Shown here piece by piece: positions 1 to 11,623 of a stretch of DNA of 64,000 nt; the first letter of the stretch is position 1, and each line of letters opens with the position of its first letter. Location: positions 1 through 64,000 of the forward strand of contig CAMJPC010000009.1 of assembly GCA_946407705.1 (NCBI GenBank). Reading direction: 5' to 3'. A model generated the notes under the pieces. The model saw nothing but the letters and a program-made list of their open reading frames with translations, was not told the origin of the DNA and searched no databases. Both the position numbers and the translations under genes were made by a program. The stretch comes from an uncultured Clostridia bacterium. Its GTDB lineage: Bacteria > Bacillota > Clostridia > Saccharofermentanales > Saccharofermentanaceae.

Positions 1-1447
1 ACTGCATGTTGCAGACATCGTGCTTGTCGATGGTTCTTCTGATCTTCTCAACGTCGCTGACATTGACTTTGTCTGCAAGTGCGGGCATGTCATCCCAGTG
101 GAAGCATCCGGGAACGCGGGACTCGCATGTGATGATGTTCTTCAGAACAGGAAGTCTTGCTGCTTCAAGCTTTCCGGGCTCGCTGTCCTTGAGCTCAGGG
201 CAGATCTCGTTGATGATCTGGATGTAGTCGCAGTCCTTGAACTTGTCGATCATGACGAGCGTGCATGTATCAGACTGTCTGAGCAGATATTCGATCTCAT
301 GTATCTTGTATGCCGTGTTTACTGTTACGAGAACGCAACCGATCTTTGTTGCAGCCCAGAATGTCAGATACCACTGGGGTACGTTTGTAGCCCAGATAGC
401 GATGTGGTCACCCTTCTTGCAGCCCATTGCGAGGAATGCTCTTGCAAGGTTGTCGACGTCATTCCTGAACTCGGGATATGTTCTCGTATAGTCAAGTTCT
501 GTATATCTGAAAGCATACTGATTAGGGAAAAGCTCGCAGATCTTATCCAATACATCCGGGAATGTCAGGTCGATCAAAGTCTCCTTGGGCCAGGGATAGT
601 AGCCTGTTCCCCTTTTGTCAGACTGGAGCTCGATCTTCTGCTTGGGACGGTAAGTCTCCATGTAGCCTGCAAACTGGGGTACGACGATACCTGCACCTTC
701 AAGGTTCTTGGACCATCTGTAAACCCATTCGAGTGATACATATCCGATGTAATCGATAGCCTGGAGAGCGTCGAACATTTCCTTGAGGGGCATGTCGCCT
801 GCTCCCATGAGCTTATATGAGACCTTGCCGTCTACCATGACGGAGTCTTTTACGTGAACGTGCTTGATATACTCACCAAGGTTATTAACTGTCTCAACGG
901 GAGACTCACCCATAAATCTGTAAGGGTGATGCATATCCCAGAGAGCAGCGACCTTGCGGTTATTGATCTCGTCCAAGAGCTTCTTGAGCCTCTTTGTATC
1001 AGCATAAACGCCGTTAGTTTCGATAAGGAGAGTAACGTTCATCTCTTCAGCGTAAGGAATAAGCTCTCTGATGATGGAGATAACAACGTTGTCGTCGATC
1101 TCCTTTTCGGGAGCTGGATTGCGGTCGCCAAGTACGCGGATGAAAGACGTTCCGAGCTTATTTGCGAGCTCGATGTATGCCCTGATCTCGGCAATAGCCT
1201 TATCCTTTGTAGCCATGTCGTTTATAGGCTCACCGGATGAAAGGCACGGAATTGTTAGTTTTAGATCTTTTAGTTTTGCGATGGTCTTAGGTAGTTCTTT
1301 ATCTGTGAAAGGTGCTGCTTTGACTGAGAAGATATCCTGTCCCAGTCCTCTGATCTCGATTCCGTCAAAACCGAAATCCTTAGCCATTGAGTAGATTTCC
1401 TGCCAAGAGAAGTCCGGGCAAGCCAGTGTTGAAAAACATGTTTTCAT
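1..1447 (-). CDS. Fusion protein: N-terminal xylose-isomerase-like TIM-barrel (sugar phosphate isomerase/epimerase) + C-terminal AMP-binding acyl-CoA synthetase (truncated by window edge)
   Basis: Hand translation from ATG at 1447 (-), preceded by a GAGGTGG RBS: MKTCFSTLACPDFSWQEIYSMAKDFGFDGIEIRGLG...LLIETNGVYAD...ALWDMHHPYRF...YIKHVHVKDS...SLEWVYRW...KRGTGYYPWPKETLIDLTFPDVLDKICELFPNQYAFRYTELDYTRTYPEFRNDVDNLARAFLAMGCKKGDHIAIWATNVPQWYLTFWAATKIGCVLVTVNTAYK. Codons across the junction (542-760) were checked one by one with no stop. Missing from the ORF track because it has no stop inside the window. Confidence 0.88.
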   Translation of the reverse strand, partial: MKTCFSTLACPDFSWQEIYSMAKDFGFDGIEIRGLGQDIFSVKAAPFTDKELPKTIAKLKDLKLTIPCLSSGEPINDMATKDKAIAEIRAYIELANKLGTSFIRVLGDRNPAPEKEIDDNVVISIIRELIPYAEEMNVTLLIETNGVYADTKRLKKLLDEINNRKVAALWDMHHPYRFMGESPVETVNNLGEYIKHVHVKDSVMVDGKVSYKLMGAGDMPLKEMFDALQAIDYIGYVSLEWVYRWSKNLEGAGIVVPQFAGYMETYRPKQKIELQSDKRGTGYYPWPKETLIDLTFPDVLDKICELFPNQYAFRYTELDYTRTYPEFRNDVDNLARAFLAMGCKKGDHIAIWATNVPQWYLTFWAATKIGCVLVTVNTAYKIHEIEYLLRQSDTCTLVMIDKFKDCDYIQIINEICPELKDSEPGKLEAARLPVLKNIITCESRVPGCFHWDDMPALADKVNVSDVEKIRRTIDKHDVCNMQ

Positions 1448-1514
1448 AAAACCACCTCACAAAATAAAGAATCGCTAAATTATATCTTTTTAGGGATAAT
1501 TTGTAAATCAAAAT

Positions 1515-1535
1515 ATGTCGACATTAAATCGACAT
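1515..1535. repeat. Inverted repeat ATGTCGA-N7-TCGACAT at the 3' end of plsX
   Basis: Read directly: atgtcgacattaaatcgacat; 7-bp arms, 7-nt loop. Confidence 0.6.
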
Positions 1536-2474
1536 CATTGCCTGATTTATGCAGCTGTATATAGTATTGGAATCTGCCTTGCCGTGTGCTTTGACCACAT
1601 GCTTCCTTATACCCAGGATAACCGCACCGCCGTACTCATTGTACTGATACAGGCATTCATTCTCTTTTAGGACTTCCAAAGCTGCCTTCAGGCTCTCGCC
1701 GGATAGTCGCTCCTCCAGACCCTTTCGGATACTTTCGGAGACCAATGTACCTGCACTCTCATTACCTTTTAGCAAGGCATTGCCAACCAGACCTGTGGAA
1801 ACGGCGACATCAGTCTCACCCGTAAGGAGATTGTCGGGCTCTATATTACCGATAAAGTTAAGACCTGAACCTTTAAGCAGTTTAAATGCTTCGATAAGGG
1901 TCTCTGTACCTTTGCAGTCTTCCCTGCCGACGTTCATAAGAGCGACCTTGGGATTGTTTACGCCTCTTGATTCCATGAGCTTTGCACCCAGGATGCCGAA
2001 ACTTAACATTTCATCGGGCGAGGGCTCAAGTGACGATCCGCAGTCTACGAGGCAGACTCTGTCTTCGATGCCGTAAGGAAGCAGCGCAGCGAGCACAGGC
2101 CTTTTGCAGCCTGTCTCGAGACCGATCTTGATGACAGATGCGATTATCAATGCACCGGTATTACCTACGCTTACGACTGCTGCAGGTCCTTCTGATTTGG
2201 AAAGAGACTCAAGCGCAACAGGCATTGAATAATCTGCACCGGGTTTTGCTGCGAGCATAGGATTGTCTTCATTTGTGAGAACCGAGCCGCAGTCCTTAAA
2301 ATCAAACCTGTCCTTGAGGTCAGAATGCTTTTCGGCTACGCCTTCATACTCTGAAGCGGGACCCACGAACGTGATAAACAGATCGGCATTGTCTGAAAGC
2401 GCTCTGAAAGCGCCTTCACAGATCACCGATGCGGGATTATCGCCGCCTGAAAGGTCAAGGAATATCTTTTTCAC
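1524..2474 (-). CDS. plsX: Phosphate acyltransferase PlsX
   Basis: ORF 316 aa; MKKIFLDLSGGDNPASVICEGAFRAL, AAKPGADYSMPVAL, VSVGNTGALI pattern typical of PlsX; next to DAK2/DegV genes. Confidence 0.85.
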   Translation of the reverse strand: MKKIFLDLSGGDNPASVICEGAFRALSDNADLFITFVGPASEYEGVAEKHSDLKDRFDFKDCGSVLTNEDNPMLAAKPGADYSMPVALESLSKSEGPAAVVSVGNTGALIIASVIKIGLETGCKRPVLAALLPYGIEDRVCLVDCGSSLEPSPDEMLSFGILGAKLMESRGVNNPKVALMNVGREDCKGTETLIEAFKLLKGSGLNFIGNIEPDNLLTGETDVAVSTGLVGNALLKGNESAGTLVSESIRKGLEERLSGESLKAALEVLKENECLYQYNEYGGAVILGIRKHVVKAHGKADSNTIYSCINQAMMSI

Positions 2475-4087
2475 TGATAGAGTACCACCAGATCATATAT
2501 GCCCTGTCCGCCGTATGCCGCTGATATCTCAGCATCGGGGCAGGATTTCTTTATGCCGGTTATGTTGCCCTGAACATGGGTAACAAGGACGTCCGTGGAG
2601 GTAAATACCGTTACGGACTCAATGTCTTCGATTCCGGGAACATGCTTAGTAAGCTCGATGAGTGCCGTGATAGCGTCGGATGAGCTGCAGACGATTATGT
2701 CGTCATCGACCACGCCGATATGATCGCCGGCTTTTACTTCAACGCCGTTATAAACGCCGGACTTGTCTGCAACTGAGACAAAACCCGTGTGAACATCCTT
2801 GATGGAATCGATCATAGTCTTCTCGATTATCTCGTAAGAAGCCGAAGGATCGATTAAGGAAAGTGCGCAATAGCCTTCCGCCATTGACTTGGTGGGAACG
2901 ATATGAAGAACCGAATCAGTCAGGAGTTCTCTGACCTTCTCGGCCGTCATTATGATGTTCTTATTGTTGGGAAGCAGGATAACGTGCTTAGCGGAAGCCT
3001 TTTTGCATGCGTCGAGCATGTTCTGCACGGAAACATTATCGGACTGCCCTCCCCTGATTATCTGCTTTACGCCCAAAGACTTATAGAGTTCTTCCATGCC
3101 GTCTCCGTCAGCTACTGCAACAATGGCGCAGTCCTGGGTAGCCGTAAGGAAGTTCTCGTGGTGCTGGACCGTCATGTTCTCGATCTTGAGCTTGGTAAAC
3201 TCACCATATTTATGGAAATAAGCCAGAATTTCCTCAGGCTTCAATGTGTGGATATGGATCTTGAGGTCACATCCGTCCTGAACGAGAACGAGAGAATTGC
3301 CAAAGCTCGACATATCGATACGGACTGTATCAGAATTGAAACTTGCGAGCTTGTCCTTTTCGATCTTCAATATGAGCTCGGTGCAGTAGCCAAACTGCTC
3401 ATCATCTGAAGAAGCACCGAGTGTTCCGTTATTGGAGAAAGTAGGCTTTAATGACTCAAATTCCGAGAAATCATACTCGAAATCGTCGTCCAATGCTGAA
3501 AGCATACCTGTTACCAGGCAGAGGAATCCCATTCCGCCGCTGTCCAAGACATCGTACTCCTTAAGGATCGGGAGCTTGTCGGGTGTGTGCTTTAATGACT
3601 CAGAAGCGCCTTCAACGACGTTCTTCATGAAGTCTTTTACGGTCGTGTCTTCATCAAATGCATCTTCAGCGTCTTCCTGTGCTTCCCTGCATACTGTAAG
3701 GAAAGTGCCTTCCACAGGATCTGCGACCGAAGAATAAGCTGATTGTGTACCTGAGATGAATGCACCGTCAAGGTTGCCCGGATCGAGTTCGGTCTCATCT
3801 CTCAAAGCCTTGAGGAATCCTTTGAGCCACTGCGAAAGGATAACGCCTGAATTACCCTGTGAATTCATGAGCGCGCTCTTATAAAGAGCATCGAAATCTT
3901 CGGGTTCAAGGTCCCTGTCACCGATCTCCATGAGGACTTTTACGATGCCTGACATCGTCTTGTCCATATTGGTTCCCGTATCGCCGTCAGGGATCGGGAA
4001 AACGTTCATGTCATTTAGTGTCTGCTTGTTTTCCAGGATGTTCTTGCTGCCTGCAAGAAGCATCTTCTTGATTACGCTAATTTCCAT
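2471..4087 (-). CDS. fakA: DAK2-domain fatty acid kinase catalytic subunit (YloV/FakA-like)
   Basis: ORF 538 aa; N-term NVFPIPDGDTGTNMDKTM, GNSGVILSQWLKGF (DAK2 phosphatase/kinase motifs); overlaps plsX start by 4 bp. Confidence 0.88.
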   Translation of the reverse strand: MEISVIKKMLLAGSKNILENKQTLNDMNVFPIPDGDTGTNMDKTMSGIVKVLMEIGDRDLEPEDFDALYKSALMNSQGNSGVILSQWLKGFLKALRDETELDPGNLDGAFISGTQSAYSSVADPVEGTFLTVCREAQEDAEDAFDEDTTVKDFMKNVVEGASESLKHTPDKLPILKEYDVLDSGGMGFLCLVTGMLSALDDDFEYDFSEFESLKPTFSNNGTLGASSDDEQFGYCTELILKIEKDKLASFNSDTVRIDMSSFGNSLVLVQDGCDLKIHIHTLKPEEILAYFHKYGEFTKLKIENMTVQHHENFLTATQDCAIVAVADGDGMEELYKSLGVKQIIRGGQSDNVSVQNMLDACKKASAKHVILLPNNKNIIMTAEKVRELLTDSVLHIVPTKSMAEGYCALSLIDPSASYEIIEKTMIDSIKDVHTGFVSVADKSGVYNGVEVKAGDHIGVVDDDIIVCSSSDAITALIELTKHVPGIEDIESVTVFTSTDVLVTHVQGNITGIKKSCPDAEISAAYGGQGIYDLVVLYQ

Positions 4088-4967
4088 TTAACTGTTCCTT
4101 TTTGTGTTTACCGCAGTAGAACACGATTATAGTTCCGGGGCCTACGGAAGCACCGACGATCGGGCCAATAACATAGAGGCTCGTTTCAGCTCCGGGTATG
4201 AGTTCCTTTATCTTTTCCGCAACCACATTCGCAGAAGCCTCATCATCGGCATGGCCGATATAGATGGTCTGAGAAAGCGGATCGGTTATATATTGCGCAG
4301 TCATGGCAGCGAGCTCGAAAAGTGATGACTTTCTGCCCTTTACCTTCTTGACTGCCAGATTGTGACCTTCAAGATCTGATATAAGAATCGGTTTTACGGA
4401 GAAAAGATTGCCGAAGAAAGCAGAAGAAGCGGTAACGCGTCCTGCAGCCTTGAGGTAATCCAGATTCTCGACTGTGCCGTACTGGTTAAAGAAAAGCTTG
4501 TTGTCTTCAATCCATGCGGCAGTATCTTCCAAAGACTTGCCCTCGTCTCTCATCTGTGCTGCCTTGATGGCCATTGAGCCCTGTCCCAGGCCGCTGATAA
4601 GAGAATCGATGCATATAATCTTCCTGCCCGGGAAGTCGGTCCTGAATTCGCCTGCCAAAACGTTCGCAGTATTAACTGAACCGGAAAGTCCTGATGAGCA
4701 AGCAATGTACAGGATGTCCTCACCTTTCGAGAGATGTTCTCTGAACTTCTCATCAAAGGTCTTAAAGGGAACCTGGACAGTCTTATATCTTTTGCCGCTT
4801 CTCATGGAATCGTAGAAATCCTTGGAGGAAATCTCATCCCAGTCGAGTGAAGCCCTGAAGATCTTGTCCTCAAGAGAGAACTCCATCTTGCAGTAATCAA
4901 TGGAATACTTCTCACGAAGTTCTTTTGAAAGATCGCTTGTGGAATCAGTGATGACGGCAAAGCTCAT
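4077..4967 (-). CDS. fakB: DegV family fatty-acid-binding protein (FakB-like)
   Basis: ORF 296 aa; AVITDSTSDLSKEL, ...IACSSGLSGSVNTA, IICIDSLISGLGQG; overlaps fakA. Confidence 0.88.
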   Translation of the reverse strand: MSFAVITDSTSDLSKELREKYSIDYCKMEFSLEDKIFRASLDWDEISSKDFYDSMRSGKRYKTVQVPFKTFDEKFREHLSKGEDILYIACSSGLSGSVNTANVLAGEFRTDFPGRKIICIDSLISGLGQGSMAIKAAQMRDEGKSLEDTAAWIEDNKLFFNQYGTVENLDYLKAAGRVTASSAFFGNLFSVKPILISDLEGHNLAVKKVKGRKSSLFELAAMTAQYITDPLSQTIYIGHADDEASANVVAEKIKELIPGAETSLYVIGPIVGASVGPGTIIVFYCGKHKKEQLNGN

Positions 4968-4984
4968 AGTGGTCCTCCTTCCCT

Positions 4985-5941
4985 TTAACCGTTAAGGAAC
5001 TGTGTAACTTCCTGATCGTACTTCTCCAAGTTTACTATTCTTAAGTGCGAATGTGCACCATGATCGAACCAAACGAACTTCTTTTTCGCGCTTCCGCAAG
5101 CGTTATAGATAAGTTCGAAATCATCGGGGCTGTTGCTCTTGTCCTCTCTTCCGCACAGGAAAAGTGCAGGAACTTCAACCTTCTTGATTTCTTCTATCGG
5201 CTTGTTCTTGAAAACGTTTACTCCGGCAAGTTTCTTATAAAGCATGGCCATCTGAATGCATACGGGGAAAGTGGGCTTTCCGTGGTTCTTCGTTCTCATT
5301 AAAAGAACTTTGTAGAAAGCACTGTACGGACCTTCAAGGATGATCCCCTTGAGGTAAGCCTGGTGGGCTGCAGCAACATAGATAGCCTGAGCAGAGCCTA
5401 CGCAGATGCCGTGGATGTAGAACTCGTTAATGCCGTACTTTTCGTGGATATGATCGATCCAAAGACCGGCATCCTCTCCTTCTTTCATTCCGGCGGTCGT
5501 ATAAATGCCTTCGCTTAAGCCGCAGGCGCGCGGGTCAACAACGATGACATTGCATCCTGCTTTTTGGAATACTTCCGCGAAATAGTAGCAGTAGAGCACG
5601 GTTTCAGCTCTTCCTGCCAATATCAGAACGGCACGGTCGTATCCGAAATTGAAATACTCGCCCTTAAGCTTAAGCCCGTCCCTGCTCGTTATTTCAATAT
5701 CTTCCTTATATGAAGCGTTCTCTTCTCCCCACTTCATTCCGGTATCGAACATAACGGAATGCTCCGCGTTCTCGGGGCAGCTGTTGCCTCTTGCCCACTT
5801 ATCCGGAGAAGTACGGATAAACATTTCGGAGTATTGCTTTTTAGCAATACCCCAAACGTATACCCACATGAATATGAATCCGCTGAGCGCTATGAATAAG
5901 ACGATCGCGGCAATGAAAAGAATTACCTGAACCGGCGTCAT
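4985..5941 (-). CDS. Membrane-anchored alpha/beta hydrolase with Cys at the nucleophile elbow (GICVG)
   Basis: ORF 318 aa; N-terminal TM helix, VVDPRACGLSEG, HGICVGSAQ, LFLCGREDKSNSPDDF, DHGAHSH. Confidence 0.8.
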   Translation of the reverse strand: MTPVQVILFIAAIVLFIALSGFIFMWVYVWGIAKKQYSEMFIRTSPDKWARGNSCPENAEHSVMFDTGMKWGEENASYKEDIEITSRDGLKLKGEYFNFGYDRAVLILAGRAETVLYCYYFAEVFQKAGCNVIVVDPRACGLSEGIYTTAGMKEGEDAGLWIDHIHEKYGINEFYIHGICVGSAQAIYVAAAHQAYLKGIILEGPYSAFYKVLLMRTKNHGKPTFPVCIQMAMLYKKLAGVNVFKNKPIEEIKKVEVPALFLCGREDKSNSPDDFELIYNACGSAKKKFVWFDHGAHSHLRIVNLEKYDQEVTQFLNG

Positions 5942-6867
5942 AATCCTGCTTTAACTTCGTTGAAGATCTTTGTCTCTTCGACAAGACCTTCGGAGATTTC
6001 ATTTCCGAGATAGAAAGCTACGATCATGCCGGGGCCGATAGCTGTTCCGTTAGCCATGTTAACACGTGTGGCAATGATCTCTTCAGGGTGGAATGTCTCT
6101 TTGATGAGATCCTGCATCTGGATCCACTGAGCCTTACGATATGTGTGTGAAACGAAGATTCTCTTCGGATTGGGTTCGATGGTCCTCTTCATGTATTCGA
6201 TGGATGCAGCGAACATCTTTTTATAACCTGTGACCTTGCCCATAACGGTATTCATACCCTTACGGTCGCACTCAGCCATAGGCTTGATGTTGATGAGACC
6301 GCCCATGAATGCAGCGATGTTGGATACACGGCCGGATCTCTTGAGGAAGTTGAGGTCATCAACTGTACCCATCTGGTGAACTCTGTACTTGTTCACGTTA
6401 AGCCATTCAGCGATTTCTTCCATGGACTTGCCCTGCTGCTTCATTTCGCCAGCATAAGAAACGAGAAGGCCTAAACCGCCTGAATATCTGACGGAGTCAA
6501 CTACGATGATCTTTCTGTCAGGATACTTCTCCATCATCTTATCTGCAGCGATCTTGCACTGACCGTAAGTTCCAGAAAGAGCGGATGAAAGTGAAATATT
6601 GAGGATGTCATAACCCTGCTTGAGATACTTCTCGAAGAACTCTTCCTGAAGCTCGATATTCTTGATGCCTGTAGTATAGATGGCATCCTTAGTCATGCTT
6701 CCATAGTATTCGTCAGGACTCATAAGCTCCCAGTCAAGAGTGGAATCCTCTTTCTTTCCGTCAGGAAGAATAACGATTCCAGGAAGATAATCGGTAATGC
6801 CGAATCTTTCTCTGAGATCCTTTGTCAGGTCCGTAGAACTGTCTGTAAGAATTACAAAATCACCCAT
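5938..6867 (-). CDS. fakB: DegV family fatty-acid-binding protein (FakB-like), second paralogue
   Basis: ORF 309 aa; VILTDSSTDLTKDLRERFG, ISLSSALSGTYGQCK, IIVVDSVRYSGGLGLLV. Confidence 0.88.
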   Translation of the reverse strand: MGDFVILTDSSTDLTKDLRERFGITDYLPGIVILPDGKKEDSTLDWELMSPDEYYGSMTKDAIYTTGIKNIELQEEFFEKYLKQGYDILNISLSSALSGTYGQCKIAADKMMEKYPDRKIIVVDSVRYSGGLGLLVSYAGEMKQQGKSMEEIAEWLNVNKYRVHQMGTVDDLNFLKRSGRVSNIAAFMGGLINIKPMAECDRKGMNTVMGKVTGYKKMFAASIEYMKRTIEPNPKRIFVSHTYRKAQWIQMQDLIKETFHPEEIIATRVNMANGTAIGPGMIVAFYLGNEISEGLVEETKIFNEVKAGL

Positions 6868-6893
6868 TTTAATACTCCTTTATAGTTATTTGT

Positions 6894-7163
6894 TTATTGA
6901 TTTTTTGCTTGTTCAATTGCTTTGATGACGTCTCCGACAGTCTGGAAAGCTGAAGAACCGGTCAGATCAAGGCGGACTTTCATCTTTTCCTCGATGTTCA
7001 TCATGATGACGACGAAAGATACGGAATCCATGTCAAGATCCTTAAGAGGTGTATCTTCCGTTATTGCTGAGAGCGGGGTGTCAAATTCGCGGTTCATAGA
7101 CTTATAACTGTCATAGATGACAGAGTAGAGTTCTTCAAGCATTTTTCTGTTCCCCTTCCGCAT
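6894..7163 (-). CDS. Acyl carrier protein
   Basis: ORF 89 aa; DLDMDSVSFVVIMMNIEEKMKVRL, phosphopantetheine Ser in a DSV motif. Confidence 0.82.
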   Translation of the reverse strand: MRKGNRKMLEELYSVIYDSYKSMNREFDTPLSAITEDTPLKDLDMDSVSFVVIMMNIEEKMKVRLDLTGSSAFQTVGDVIKAIEQAKNQ

Positions 7164-8547
7164 GTTTACCGGACTTCTTCTCGGCAGCTTCCTTGATCTG
7201 CTCGTTAACGCGCTCGAGATTGGCCTTCATCTGCTTTCTTGTTTCCTTTACTTCCCTGTTGAATTTAGGTGAAGATTCGCGGATCGCGATATGTTTCAAC
7301 TCGGTAAGTTTCTTGTAAAGTACTTCATTAGCTAGATTAACTGAGTTATTATCAGCCTTTTTAAAGGCACTGTCAAATTTAATCAATTCACCTATTACGT
7401 ACACTTGCTTCCTGAAAGGCTTATATGTCGTATGCATATAAACAGGTGCCACGGGAACTCCTGTCATAAGGGCCAGCATGACCGCACCGCTCATGAATGG
7501 GAGAAGATCGTCATCGTAGTTCATGTGGCCTTCAGGGAAAACAACAAGCGGTATATCATCCTTCAGGCATTCCATGCATGTCCTTATGGCACCCCAGTCA
7601 AAACCCGAACGGTCAAGCAGTATGCAGCCCATCGTCTTCTCGAAAAAGCCCCAGGACTTATTGATGTCAGCTACATCCTGAGCGGCAATGCATCTTGGAG
7701 AGAGCTTGAAAAAGACGTAGTACATGAAAGGAGCATCGATCCACCAGGAATGGTTGCTGACCAGAAGCATGCCCTTCTGTCTTAATCTGGTTCCTCTTGC
7801 CATTCCGTTTTCGTAAACGTACTTAGGGTGCATGAAAGCCCAGATAGCGGGATAAGCAGTGATCTTAACAAAGTTGTAGAGGAAGTTAGAATGTTTGTAC
7901 TTCTTTGGCTTTTTGCCTTCGGCTTCGTAGAAGTTTTCAAGATAGAACTGTCTGTAGCTCTCGATCGTATCGTAAAGGTCCTTGGTCAATGTCCTGGACT
8001 GATCCTGAAGATTCTCCTCTTTGATCAGATAATTGTCCGGGAAAATGGGTTCGCCGATAAACATTTTGTCTCTCTTGCCGGGGCCTATCTTACCGTTGTG
8101 ATAAACAGGAATGATCGGAGCGCCTGAGCCTAAACTCATAAGAGCTGCAGCCTGACCGAATTCCAGGAGCTTACCTTCAGTCTCGATATGACCTTCAGGG
8201 AAAATCAGAATGTTCTTGCCGTCTTTTAACAGCTTGACTGCTTTGTTGACGGCATCCATGTTGCCGCTTACTGCATCTACCCTAATGACGCCCATGGCTT
8301 TTACGAGGAAAGTCAGGACCGGATTGTAGTCATAGAACTTCGCGGAAACGAGTACAAAGAACCGTCTTCCCGGGAAAGCCAGAAGCGCACAAACATAATC
8401 AAGAAATGATGTGTGATTCAGGGCGGCGATTATTGGTCCTTTATAATCAAGCTTCTTTTTTGCACGCAGGAAATATCTCTTTACATTGAAAAAGAGTAAT
8501 GCGGGAATAATGCTTGTGATAATTAAGAACCATCTTACAAGGAACAT
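7135..8547 (-). CDS. Tandem-domain 1-acylglycerol-3-phosphate acyltransferase (PlsC-PlsC)
   Basis: ORF 470 aa; two HX4D motifs (NHTSFLDY, NHSWWIDAPF) and two FPEG motifs (IFPEGHIETEG, VFPEGHMNYDD). Confidence 0.85.
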   Translation of the reverse strand: MFLVRWFLIITSIIPALLFFNVKRYFLRAKKKLDYKGPIIAALNHTSFLDYVCALLAFPGRRFFVLVSAKFYDYNPVLTFLVKAMGVIRVDAVSGNMDAVNKAVKLLKDGKNILIFPEGHIETEGKLLEFGQAAALMSLGSGAPIIPVYHNGKIGPGKRDKMFIGEPIFPDNYLIKEENLQDQSRTLTKDLYDTIESYRQFYLENFYEAEGKKPKKYKHSNFLYNFVKITAYPAIWAFMHPKYVYENGMARGTRLRQKGMLLVSNHSWWIDAPFMYYVFFKLSPRCIAAQDVADINKSWGFFEKTMGCILLDRSGFDWGAIRTCMECLKDDIPLVVFPEGHMNYDDDLLPFMSGAVMLALMTGVPVAPVYMHTTYKPFRKQVYVIGELIKFDSAFKKADNNSVNLANEVLYKKLTELKHIAIRESSPKFNREVKETRKQMKANLERVNEQIKEAAEKKSGKHAEGEQKNA

Positions 8548-10514
8548 CAGTTTGTTTCCTTCTCGATCTTATTTGCTGTTGTGATTATGTAATCAGCGAT
8601 GGCCATTGGAGTAATGAGAGGCGTCTCGGTCATCATGATCTGTCTGCCGGTCCTCTCACCTGCTTTGCTCAAAAGCTCGACATACTGCATACTGTCGCCG
8701 CCGAGAGCAACAAAGTTGGATGTCTCGGAGATCTCGCTTCTGTCTTTGTTAAGTACCTCTGCGAACACTTCACAGACAGTATCAATAAGCTTGACATATT
8801 CATCCGTTCTGATCCTCTTGATCTCCTCATCTGAAGGATCAGAGCATTCTGTAAAGAACAGCTTTGATTCTTCGAGACCTGCAACAAGAGCCCTTCTGTC
8901 AACACCCTTAAGGTTCTCCGGCATATCACCGATGAGGCTTACCACTTTCGAAGGCCTCTCGATCATGGAGAGAGTTGAGATAGAATTGAACACGCCTTTC
9001 AGTGATGTCGTAAGTTCGAAAGCGCCTAACTTGCCGTTATCAGAAAGAACAAGGATCATCTGCTTGCTATCGGTTCTGGGAAGCTTTGCATATACAAGAG
9101 CCATGGCAGTATAACCGCCCTTGTTGATCCTGGATTCGATCTCTTCAGGTGAGATATTTTCGCCGTTGGGTCCGATGATAACATCATCCTTTCGTCCAAC
9201 GATGGAAAGCCTTCCGTTATCATCGATCTTTACGAAGTCATTTGTGGCATAGTAATCATCTTCGATCGGTTTGAAAACCCCATTAACGTAAGTTCCGTTC
9301 ATGGAATGATCTTTGGGGATAAGAAGTTCACCTTCATCTGAAAGCTTATAGTCGATGTTGGAGAATATAATGCCGACCTTGCCTTCATTCCTGAGCTTCG
9401 GTTTTCTTGCAAGTTCTACGGAAAGAACGCCGCACTCGGTCAAACCATATCCGTTATGGATCGAATACCCCAAACCGTTAAGTACTTCAATGGTTCTGGG
9501 TTGAATAAAACCGCCGCCTGAGATAAGGAATCTCAGTTCCTCACCAAGTAACTGACGTCTTATTTTCTTGAATATAATGCCTCTTGCAATGGTTGCACCT
9601 AAAAGCGGGAAGGCATTCTGAAGCTTATTGGAGAATCTGATCGCTTTATTGAATGTTTTAGTCTTCCCCTGCTTGGCAACCTCTGCTTCCAAAGCCGAAA
9701 CCGTTTTGTTCCAAACGAGAGGGATCGCGAAGAAATGAGTCACGCCTATTCTTCTGCAAACAAGCTGTATGGATTCAACGTCGTACCTGGGAAGGAAAAC
9801 AAAGCATCTTCCAAAGAAAGAAAACCACAAGAGCAGAGCTACGAGTCCGAAAATGTGATAAAACGGCAAGAACGCAAGATTCTTGATCTCAAGCTTTGAA
9901 TTATATTGTACTGCCGGATTCATTTCGACAAGATCGGCTGAAAGTTCAACCTGTTTGCAGATAGTCCTGCCGCTGTGGGAAATTATCTTAGGTTTAGATG
10001 TGGAACCGCTCGTAACGAGGATAACCTCATCTTCCCAATAGTCTTTTTCAGGAGCAGAATTGCCATCAATACCTTCAAGGACAGATTCCGGCTTTATAGC
10101 TCCGTTTACCATGTCATCCATTGATACGACGAATTCGGGCTTGAGTTCATCGATGATGTCATTAGTAATCGCAAGACTGTGTCTCGTATTGAGCAAGACA
10201 GGCTTAAAGCCGGATCTTAAAAGTCCCCAGAAGATCGCGACCCAGTCAACGGAATTCTCAAGATAGATTCCAGCGATTCTTGATCTGCCTTCGGCCGGTG
10301 CACCATACTTCTTCAAAAAAGCATTAGCAAAAACATCGGTTCTTGCACAGAATTCAGAATATGTGATTTTCGCGATCTTTCCGTTGTCTAAATATTCAGC
10401 GAAAAGTTCGCTGGTAAAACTCTCTCTGATGATCCTGAAAATAGTTTCAAAAGACTGATCAGAGCCATGAAGTTCCCGGATATTACGGGTTACGATTTTT
10501 GCGACCATTACCAT
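8547..10514 (-). CDS. AMP-dependent synthetase/ligase with C-terminal acyl/peptidyl carrier domain
   Basis: ORF 655 aa; VILVTSGSTSKPKIISHSG, IHNGYGLTECG, DDVIIGPNGENISPEEIE; C-term FVALGGDSMQYVELLSKAGE carrier motif. Confidence 0.87.
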   Translation of the reverse strand: MVMVAKIVTRNIRELHGSDQSFETIFRIIRESFTSELFAEYLDNGKIAKITYSEFCARTDVFANAFLKKYGAPAEGRSRIAGIYLENSVDWVAIFWGLLRSGFKPVLLNTRHSLAITNDIIDELKPEFVVSMDDMVNGAIKPESVLEGIDGNSAPEKDYWEDEVILVTSGSTSKPKIISHSGRTICKQVELSADLVEMNPAVQYNSKLEIKNLAFLPFYHIFGLVALLLWFSFFGRCFVFLPRYDVESIQLVCRRIGVTHFFAIPLVWNKTVSALEAEVAKQGKTKTFNKAIRFSNKLQNAFPLLGATIARGIIFKKIRRQLLGEELRFLISGGGFIQPRTIEVLNGLGYSIHNGYGLTECGVLSVELARKPKLRNEGKVGIIFSNIDYKLSDEGELLIPKDHSMNGTYVNGVFKPIEDDYYATNDFVKIDDNGRLSIVGRKDDVIIGPNGENISPEEIESRINKGGYTAMALVYAKLPRTDSKQMILVLSDNGKLGAFELTTSLKGVFNSISTLSMIERPSKVVSLIGDMPENLKGVDRRALVAGLEESKLFFTECSDPSDEEIKRIRTDEYVKLIDTVCEVFAEVLNKDRSEISETSNFVALGGDSMQYVELLSKAGERTGRQIMMTETPLITPMAIADYIITTANKIEKETN

Positions 10515-11623
10515 CAGACATTAAGCCCCCAGACTTCTTTGATCTGACCGCACATTTCAAGGATAGCTGCCTCACCCTGCGGAACTATGCCGAAATAGTC
10601 CAGGAAAGCATGAGTAACGCCTCTGTATCTTGTGATCTTGCAAGGAACACCTGCTTCTTTGAGGAGTTTTGCGTAATACTCCATCTGGATCCTGAGACCG
10701 TCATATTCGGCAGAGAAGATTCCCGTAAAAGGCATGACGGACAGATCGGCATATATAGGGCTGACATCCGGAGCCTTCTTAACTTCTTCGTATCTTTCAC
10801 CTGTGTAGTTTAAAAGGATTCCGGCCATGAGCTGATCGTTGCCCTTACCGTCACAACGTCCCAACTGAAGCCTTGAAAGAATGAGATCTTTCTCTTCATC
10901 GTTAATGGAATAGTCAGAAATATTCCATTCATACAAACTGTCACCTGAATAAAGGTCGACGCAGGGATAGAATAGTCCGAGATAGGAGATCTTCGCGTTA
11001 CTCTTATTATCGATTACCGAAGCAAGCGCGAGATTTGCGCCTGCGCTGTCACCGAAAAGACCGATCTTTTCCTTGTCGATACCAAGCTCATCGGCATTGT
11101 CGTAAACATATGAGATAAGATTCAGACAATCGTTGATTGCAGCGGGATAGCGGTTTTCAGGAGCAAGTCCGTATTCGATATTGAGAACGACACAACCGGT
11201 CTGTTCAGCTGTAAATCTGCAGGGCTGCTCATAGAAATGAGCTGCGCTTGCCATGAAGGAACCACCGTGGATATAGATAAGAACAGGGCTCTTCTTCCCT
11301 GCGGAATCAGCCCTTTCATATCTGAAACATGTAACATTTCTTCCGTTAGAAGAGATCTCAAAACTGCTGTTAATGATCTCATCTGTACATGCATCAAGAC
11401 ACTGAGTCTTTGTGGCAAGCCTCATTCCTTCAACAGAAAACTTGGCAGGCGCCATTTTCTGGAAAGCGAAAATTGCATTTCTTATGAAGAATTCACGCTT
11501 ATCAAGAACACCTTCACGGTCATCATCAGGAATACTCTTTATAGCGATATCAAGGCCTCTGACGTTGATATGACTATCTTCAGCCAAAATCTTATCTACC
11601 AGTTCTTTGTCACATCTGTTCAT
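10514..11623 (-). CDS. Alpha/beta hydrolase (HSL/acetyl esterase-lipase family)
   Basis: ORF 369 aa; IYIHGGSFMAS oxyanion motif, GLFGDSAGANLALA nucleophile elbow. Confidence 0.85.
   Translation of the reverse strand: MNRCDKELVDKILAEDSHINVRGLDIAIKSIPDDDREGVLDKREFFIRNAIFAFQKMAPAKFSVEGMRLATKTQCLDACTDEIINSSFEISSNGRNVTCFRYERADSAGKKSPVLIYIHGGSFMASAAHFYEQPCRFTAEQTGCVVLNIEYGLAPENRYPAAINDCLNLISYVYDNADELGIDKEKIGLFGDSAGANLALASVIDNKSNAKISYLGLFYPCVDLYSGDSLYEWNISDYSINDEEKDLILSRLQLGRCDGKGNDQLMAGILLNYTGERYEEVKKAPDVSPIYADLSVMPFTGIFSAEYDGLRIQMEYYAKLLKEAGVPCKITRYRGVTHAFLDYFGIVPQGEAAILEMCGQIKEVWGLNV

Follow-up and report, generated by a model that had tools for sequence, protein, structure and literature searches.

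Positions 1 to 64,000 of contig CAMJPC010000009.1 (assembly GCA_946407705.1), from an uncultured Clostridia bacterium, were analyzed and are referred to here as the window (64,000 nucleotides). At the left end, one open frame joins a xylose-isomerase-like TIM barrel to an AMP-forming acyl-CoA ligase. The locus raises two questions: whether this fusion is a genuine protein, and what such a barrel would do beside a ligase. Many gut and rumen Clostridia carry the fusion; that it is real and that its halves work jointly are well supported.

Extent and distribution of the fused gene

The fused gene (2..1447, minus strand) reads from an ATG at 1447 to the window end without a stop. Judged from full-length relatives, it comprises the N-terminal 482 of ~841 codons. 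The protein stops at residue 482 because window base 1 is also base 1 of the contig, and the C-terminal ~360 residues were found on no other contig of the same genome. The frame encodes an AP_endonuc_2 TIM-barrel domain (residues 1–270; 638..1447, minus strand) identified by Pfam PF01261, AlphaFold, conservation, and Foldseek, an interdomain linker (residues 271–294; 566..637, minus strand) that is uninterrupted across the fetched close relatives, and the N-terminal part of the ligase domain (residues 295–482; 2..565, minus strand) identified by Pfam PF00501 and NCBIfam PRK12583. Pfam places AP_endonuc_2 at residues 22–245 (E 5e-31), followed by the first part of AMP-binding at residues 304–425 (E 2.2e-22), in agreement with the in-frame fusion proposed in a preliminary description of this DNA. 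The motifs quoted in that description were recovered at residues 143 (ETNG), 170 (WDMHH), 196 (HVHVKD), and 238 (SLEW), along with the AMP-binding stretch, and the metal ligands it took to be retained are E143, D171, H198, and E240. As it also stated, the frame is missing from the ORF list, the only reason being that it continues past the contig end. The start codon is preceded by a likely ribosome-binding site (GAGGTGG; 1452..1458, minus strand).

The fusion is present in 28 of 34 genomes of the same genus. A scan of public genomes yielded 80 loci, 71 of them complete single uninterrupted frames and 9 truncated by contig ends. Counted from the true start, nearly all of these relatives are 840–847 residues in length; the one at L075 is shorter (777). 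Pfam domains in the 841-residue relative P0001 are AP_endonuc_2 (22–244), AMP-binding (304–689), and AMP-binding_C (741–816). In a phylum sample of 399 genomes, the fusion was found in 20 other genomes representing 11 families, and many genomes of that draw encode a free-standing ligase at 45–63% identity. Most close relatives originate from rumen or gut samples. The preliminary description had noted that a stop or frameshift at 560–720, or homologs encoded as two genes, would count against the fusion. In every close relative fetched, the frame continues across the junction. Two adjacent genes do occur in more distant relatives, but the fused arrangement is conserved in its own right. A literature search returned nothing relevant on this fusion.

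In trees of the two halves, for which no root was inferred, all fused sequences lie on one side of a branch (barrel tree 99/97; ligase tree 100), and both trees are consistent with one origin of the fusion. The L088 copy lies on a contig labeled Methanobrevibacter MAG79; this contig is probably mis-binned, because its fused gene groups with Clostridia in both trees. One further genome of the phylum sample, assembled as a single contig, carries the fused gene in pieces, through a frameshift or stop (G265:C1:1145766-1148285). This barrel family also has another fusion partner: at L202:3862-5862 (plus strand), a distant barrel relative (31%) is N-terminal in a 666-residue protein whose second half is, by eye, aldolase-like.

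The ligase half and the unfused gene pair

The window holds only the first part of the PF00501 domain, and motifs A3–A10 lie beyond the contig end. In P0001, PF00501 (302 bits) and PF13193 (71.5 bits) both score above the curated cut-off. Motifs A3 (TSGTTG-PKG), A5 (TE), and A8 (GR-KD) are kept in essentially all relatives, A7 is also kept, and the A10 catalytic lysine motif (G-K) is kept wherever listed and covered. Both halves retain their catalytic motifs in the conserved majority of relatives. NCBIfam PRK12583 aligns to residues 288–829, the whole ligase half, with 702 bits, and the A3, A5, A7, A8, and A10 motifs are kept as in these fatty acid CoA ligases. Unlike them, the fused protein scores below the 832-bit cut-off and bears an N-terminal TIM barrel, and the ligase half is related to PRK12583 but not a member of it. 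Sequence and structural matches of the ligase are to adenylating enzymes generally, and its chain-length or branching preference is not readable from sequence.

In nine genomes, the ligase and then the barrel are encoded as two genes on the same strand, 17–40 bp apart. This adjacency and the single fused group in both trees strengthen the coupling of two chemistries proposed from the window. The fused order is reversed, with the barrel first; therefore, losing the stop codon between the present-day neighbors would not have been enough to produce the fusion. Some genomes have barrel and ligase genes located apart. Genes for a 2-oxoacid:ferredoxin oxidoreductase lie 3′ of the unfused pair in seven of eight testable genomes, the ninth pair (L176) stopping at a contig edge and being left out of this count. 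The four genes are PorC_KorC, PorD_KorD, PorA/VorA-like, and PorB/VorB-like, although profile scores do not separate pyruvate from 2-ketoisovalerate oxidoreductases. Genome G164 has the TIM gene with the same four oxidoreductase genes and the ligase elsewhere. This oxidoreductase type is also found without the pair (e.g., L215), and in the fused genome G339 it is encoded away from the fusion, with an alpha subunit at 68% identity. Of 20 sampled fused genomes, only 1 has a close copy of the enzyme linked to the pair, and ligase–oxidoreductase linkage among fused genes is confined to G043 and, probably, G052. The oxidoreductase in L213 has a DUF1624-like gene beside it, identified by eye.

The adjacency of the unfused genes, with the oxidoreductase 3′ of them, is an argument for cooperation of the halves in activating acids for 2-oxo-acid synthesis, like the rumen route from isovalerate to leucine. 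The best explanation as a whole, which we hold tentatively, is a two-domain enzyme readying acids for 2-oxo-acid and amino acid synthesis. Two side-by-side genes would have fused in Clostridia, most simply once. With its intact motifs, the C-terminal half would turn a free carboxylic acid into a CoA thioester. The N-terminal metal-dependent, AsbF-like barrel would bind a small compound, probably carboxylate-bearing, and may isomerize, dehydrate, or otherwise reshape it before or after activation. The CoA ester would pass to the 2-oxoacid:ferredoxin oxidoreductase acting as a synthase (acyl-CoA + CO2 + reduced ferredoxin to 2-oxo acid), and the 2-oxo acid would serve amino acid synthesis. Gene neighbors and rumen physiology suggest branched short-chain acids, such as isovalerate, as the likeliest substrates. 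Isovalerate carboxylation to leucine in the rumen is established physiology (cited in PMC7356843). The pathway proposed here is a reasoned reading of the neighbors, and the acid-activation and 2-oxoacid oxidoreductase steps of the rumen route match the genes beside the unfused pair. To our knowledge, genes for the activating step of the isovalerate route are not assigned in these bacteria, nor has any copy of this fusion been linked to isovalerate carboxylation.

Neighbors of the fused gene vary, and most copies are without a conserved neighbor. No T-box or riboswitch naming an amino acid was found upstream of fused or paired genes at 15 loci; the sole T-box seen (L106) precedes a pheS-like gene. 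At L106:10825-12569 (plus strand), in a Ruminococcus MAG, the fused gene is followed by phenylacetate-CoA-ligase-like and ACT-domain genes, by eye another acid-activation gene set. At L205:3562 and L205:213 (both minus strand), also by eye, the fused gene is flanked by a type II pantothenate-kinase-like gene, 34 bp upstream, and by a DUF1624-like acyltransferase gene.

The barrel half and LeuA-like genes

In the window protein, PF01261 scores 108.7 bits against a cut-off of 31.1. AlphaFold models the barrel domain as a confident TIM barrel (pLDDT 95.6); the full-length model is mediocre (pLDDT 80.5, pTM 0.64). Of the four E-D-H-E metal ligands, E143, D171, and E240 are present in 33/33 fused rows and H198 in 31/33. 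Ligands are partly lost in L189 and L206; the G111 barrel is without D171, H174, and E240, and G043 has lysine for E143.

LeuA-like genes accompany some fused copies, a link to leucine that favors the proposed pathway. In G043, the fusion lies between an upstream LeuA-like gene and a downstream pyruvate:ferredoxin oxidoreductase, and the genes overlap at their ends. G052 has the same order, with a gene of equal size and cluster in the oxidoreductase position, and G111 has a LeuA-like gene and then the fusion. The LRDGEQ motif is lost from all three LeuA-like proteins. Of the HCHND motif, G043 keeps ND and G052 keeps N, both without its two histidines, and G111 has lost it entirely. Because these residues are lost while the C-terminal domain stays, the LeuA-like proteins of these three divergent genomes are probably dead as synthases. 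Such genes overlap the fused gene at L206:6601-8028 and L189:10534-12051 and adjoin it at L207 at about 10291 (all minus strand), and a role as leucine sensor is possible for their products. A dead LeuA as a general partner of the fusion was rejected, as it occurs only in G111 among the 399 sampled genomes. At L098, a LeuA-like gene that is intact by eye lies 108 bp upstream of the fusion.

These copies bear on a reading in which the barrel is mainly structural or regulatory, binding a metabolite and controlling the ligase, with its own catalysis dispensable. G111 and G043 have lost metal-site residues while their ligase motifs stay intact, and in both a dead LeuA-like gene with its C-terminal domain kept overlaps the fusion start. 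However, all other sampled fused barrels and nearly all separate ones retain the metal site, and the separate gene encodes an independent protein. We consider a dispensable barrel unlikely.

Foldseek matches the whole epimerase/isomerase superfamily at similar scores (TM 0.7–0.8), and therefore the fold alone names no reaction. The best whole-length PDB match of the barrel profile is AsbF, a 3-dehydroshikimate dehydratase (PDB 3dx5; E 2.3e-19; ~20% identity in the structural match), followed by Art22 (E 2.4e-17). The AsbF active center comprises 11 listed residues (PMC9324987). Eight are matched here: R102, E142, D172, H175, H198, K200, Y217, and E253 correspond to R104, E143, D171, H174, H198, K200, Y211, and E240. 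These alignments show no equivalent of R104 in IolI, Art22, or MJ1311. AsbF Tyr70 and Phe211 have no match in the barrel, and His144, counted as part of the active center, is replaced by Asn145 in 32/33 fused and 14/18 separate barrels, with His in more distant barrels. From these residues, we infer that the substrate is probably carboxylate-bearing and that the reaction differs from that of AsbF.

Alternatively, the barrel could be an AsbF-type lyase or isomerase that generates the carboxylic acid, perhaps using a shikimate-like compound, with the fused ligase activating the product. In petrobactin synthesis, AsbF works with a partner adenylating enzyme. The whole-length profile match and the eight shared residues, among them R104, favor this possibility. 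Asn145 and the two unmatched residues count against it, as do the grouping of the ligase profile with fatty-acid ligases and oxidoreductase neighbors ill-suited to protocatechuate, and it seems quite improbable. Unlike AsbF, the barrel here is fused to a ligase. QuiC1 and QsuB likewise join a dehydroshikimate dehydratase domain in frame with another enzyme domain (PMC7442255); there, the second domain is 4-hydroxyphenylpyruvate-dioxygenase-like, whereas in the Clostridia fusion it is an acyl-CoA ligase.

The lipid-type cluster and significance of the fusion

Genes at window positions 1524-11623 (minus strand) were identified by eye as PlsX-like, FakA-like, two DegV-like, alpha/beta hydrolase, ACP, double PlsC-like, and AMP-ligase-with-carrier genes; the cluster resembles fatty-acid or lipid assembly and is present in close relatives. 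A weak terminator-like hairpin follows the PlsX-like gene (1515..1535, minus strand), weak because the region contains two such hairpins where 1.1 would be expected. A promoter-like TTTACA-17-TATAAT site (1479..1507, minus strand; 11/12 consensus matches) lies 31 bp before the start codon of the fused gene and in the same place in relatives. Sites scoring at least 10/12 occur at −40 to −80 in 49 of 80 relatives, a count that is not independent because close relatives share descent (20/47 among more distant relatives), and 4.4% of shuffled upstream sequences have such a score anywhere.

The preliminary description drew on the gene's position at the end of a lipid operon and proposed sugar or polyol isomerization coupled to acyl activation, acting on a sugar phosphate and yielding, for example, an acyl-sugar or glycolipid head group. 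The barrel shares its fold and E-D-H-E metal site with the AP_endonuc_2 enzymes IolI, D-tagatose/D-allulose 3-epimerase, and UlaE, and the window and 27 of 69 testable relatives have FakA/DegV, PlsX-, and PlsC-like genes upstream of the fusion. The other 42, with enough upstream sequence, are without this neighborhood, and a promoter-like site of its own is conserved before the fused gene. Lipid-operon coupling was accordingly rejected as lineage-specific. Unlike the sugar isomerases and epimerases, the barrel conserves R104 and K200, two residues that IolI does not show, and no sugar genes are nearby. Genes for glycosyl or sugar-acyl transferases do not recur next to the fused gene; the recurring partner of the unfused pair is the 2-oxoacid:ferredoxin oxidoreductase, and the nearest enzyme by profile, AsbF, has a carboxylic-acid substrate. 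A glycolipid product is thus very unlikely. An assembly or annotation artefact, to which the position of the window gene at a contig end might point, is excluded by the 71 intact copies from genomes assembled separately, some of them in records whose titles do not mark them as MAGs (AB4001, YAD3003, and KHP2).

Counting against the proposed acid-activation role, no reductive-carboxylation step is known to need a sugar-isomerase-like enzyme. A bolder and doubtful proposal is that the barrel performs an undescribed metal-dependent reaction on a carboxylic or 2-oxo acid, channeled to CoA activation and ferredoxin-driven carboxylation. This would be a new step of anaerobic amino acid synthesis, placed in certain lineages beneath a dead LeuA, which retains the regulatory C-terminal domain and may sense leucine. 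If true, the barrel reaction would lie outside the accepted scheme of the isovalerate route. The gene encodes a conserved, uncharacterized two-enzyme fusion of rumen and gut Clostridia, whose unfused form points to a probable pathway partner, and provides a testable entry to the activation of free acids such as isovalerate for amino acid synthesis.
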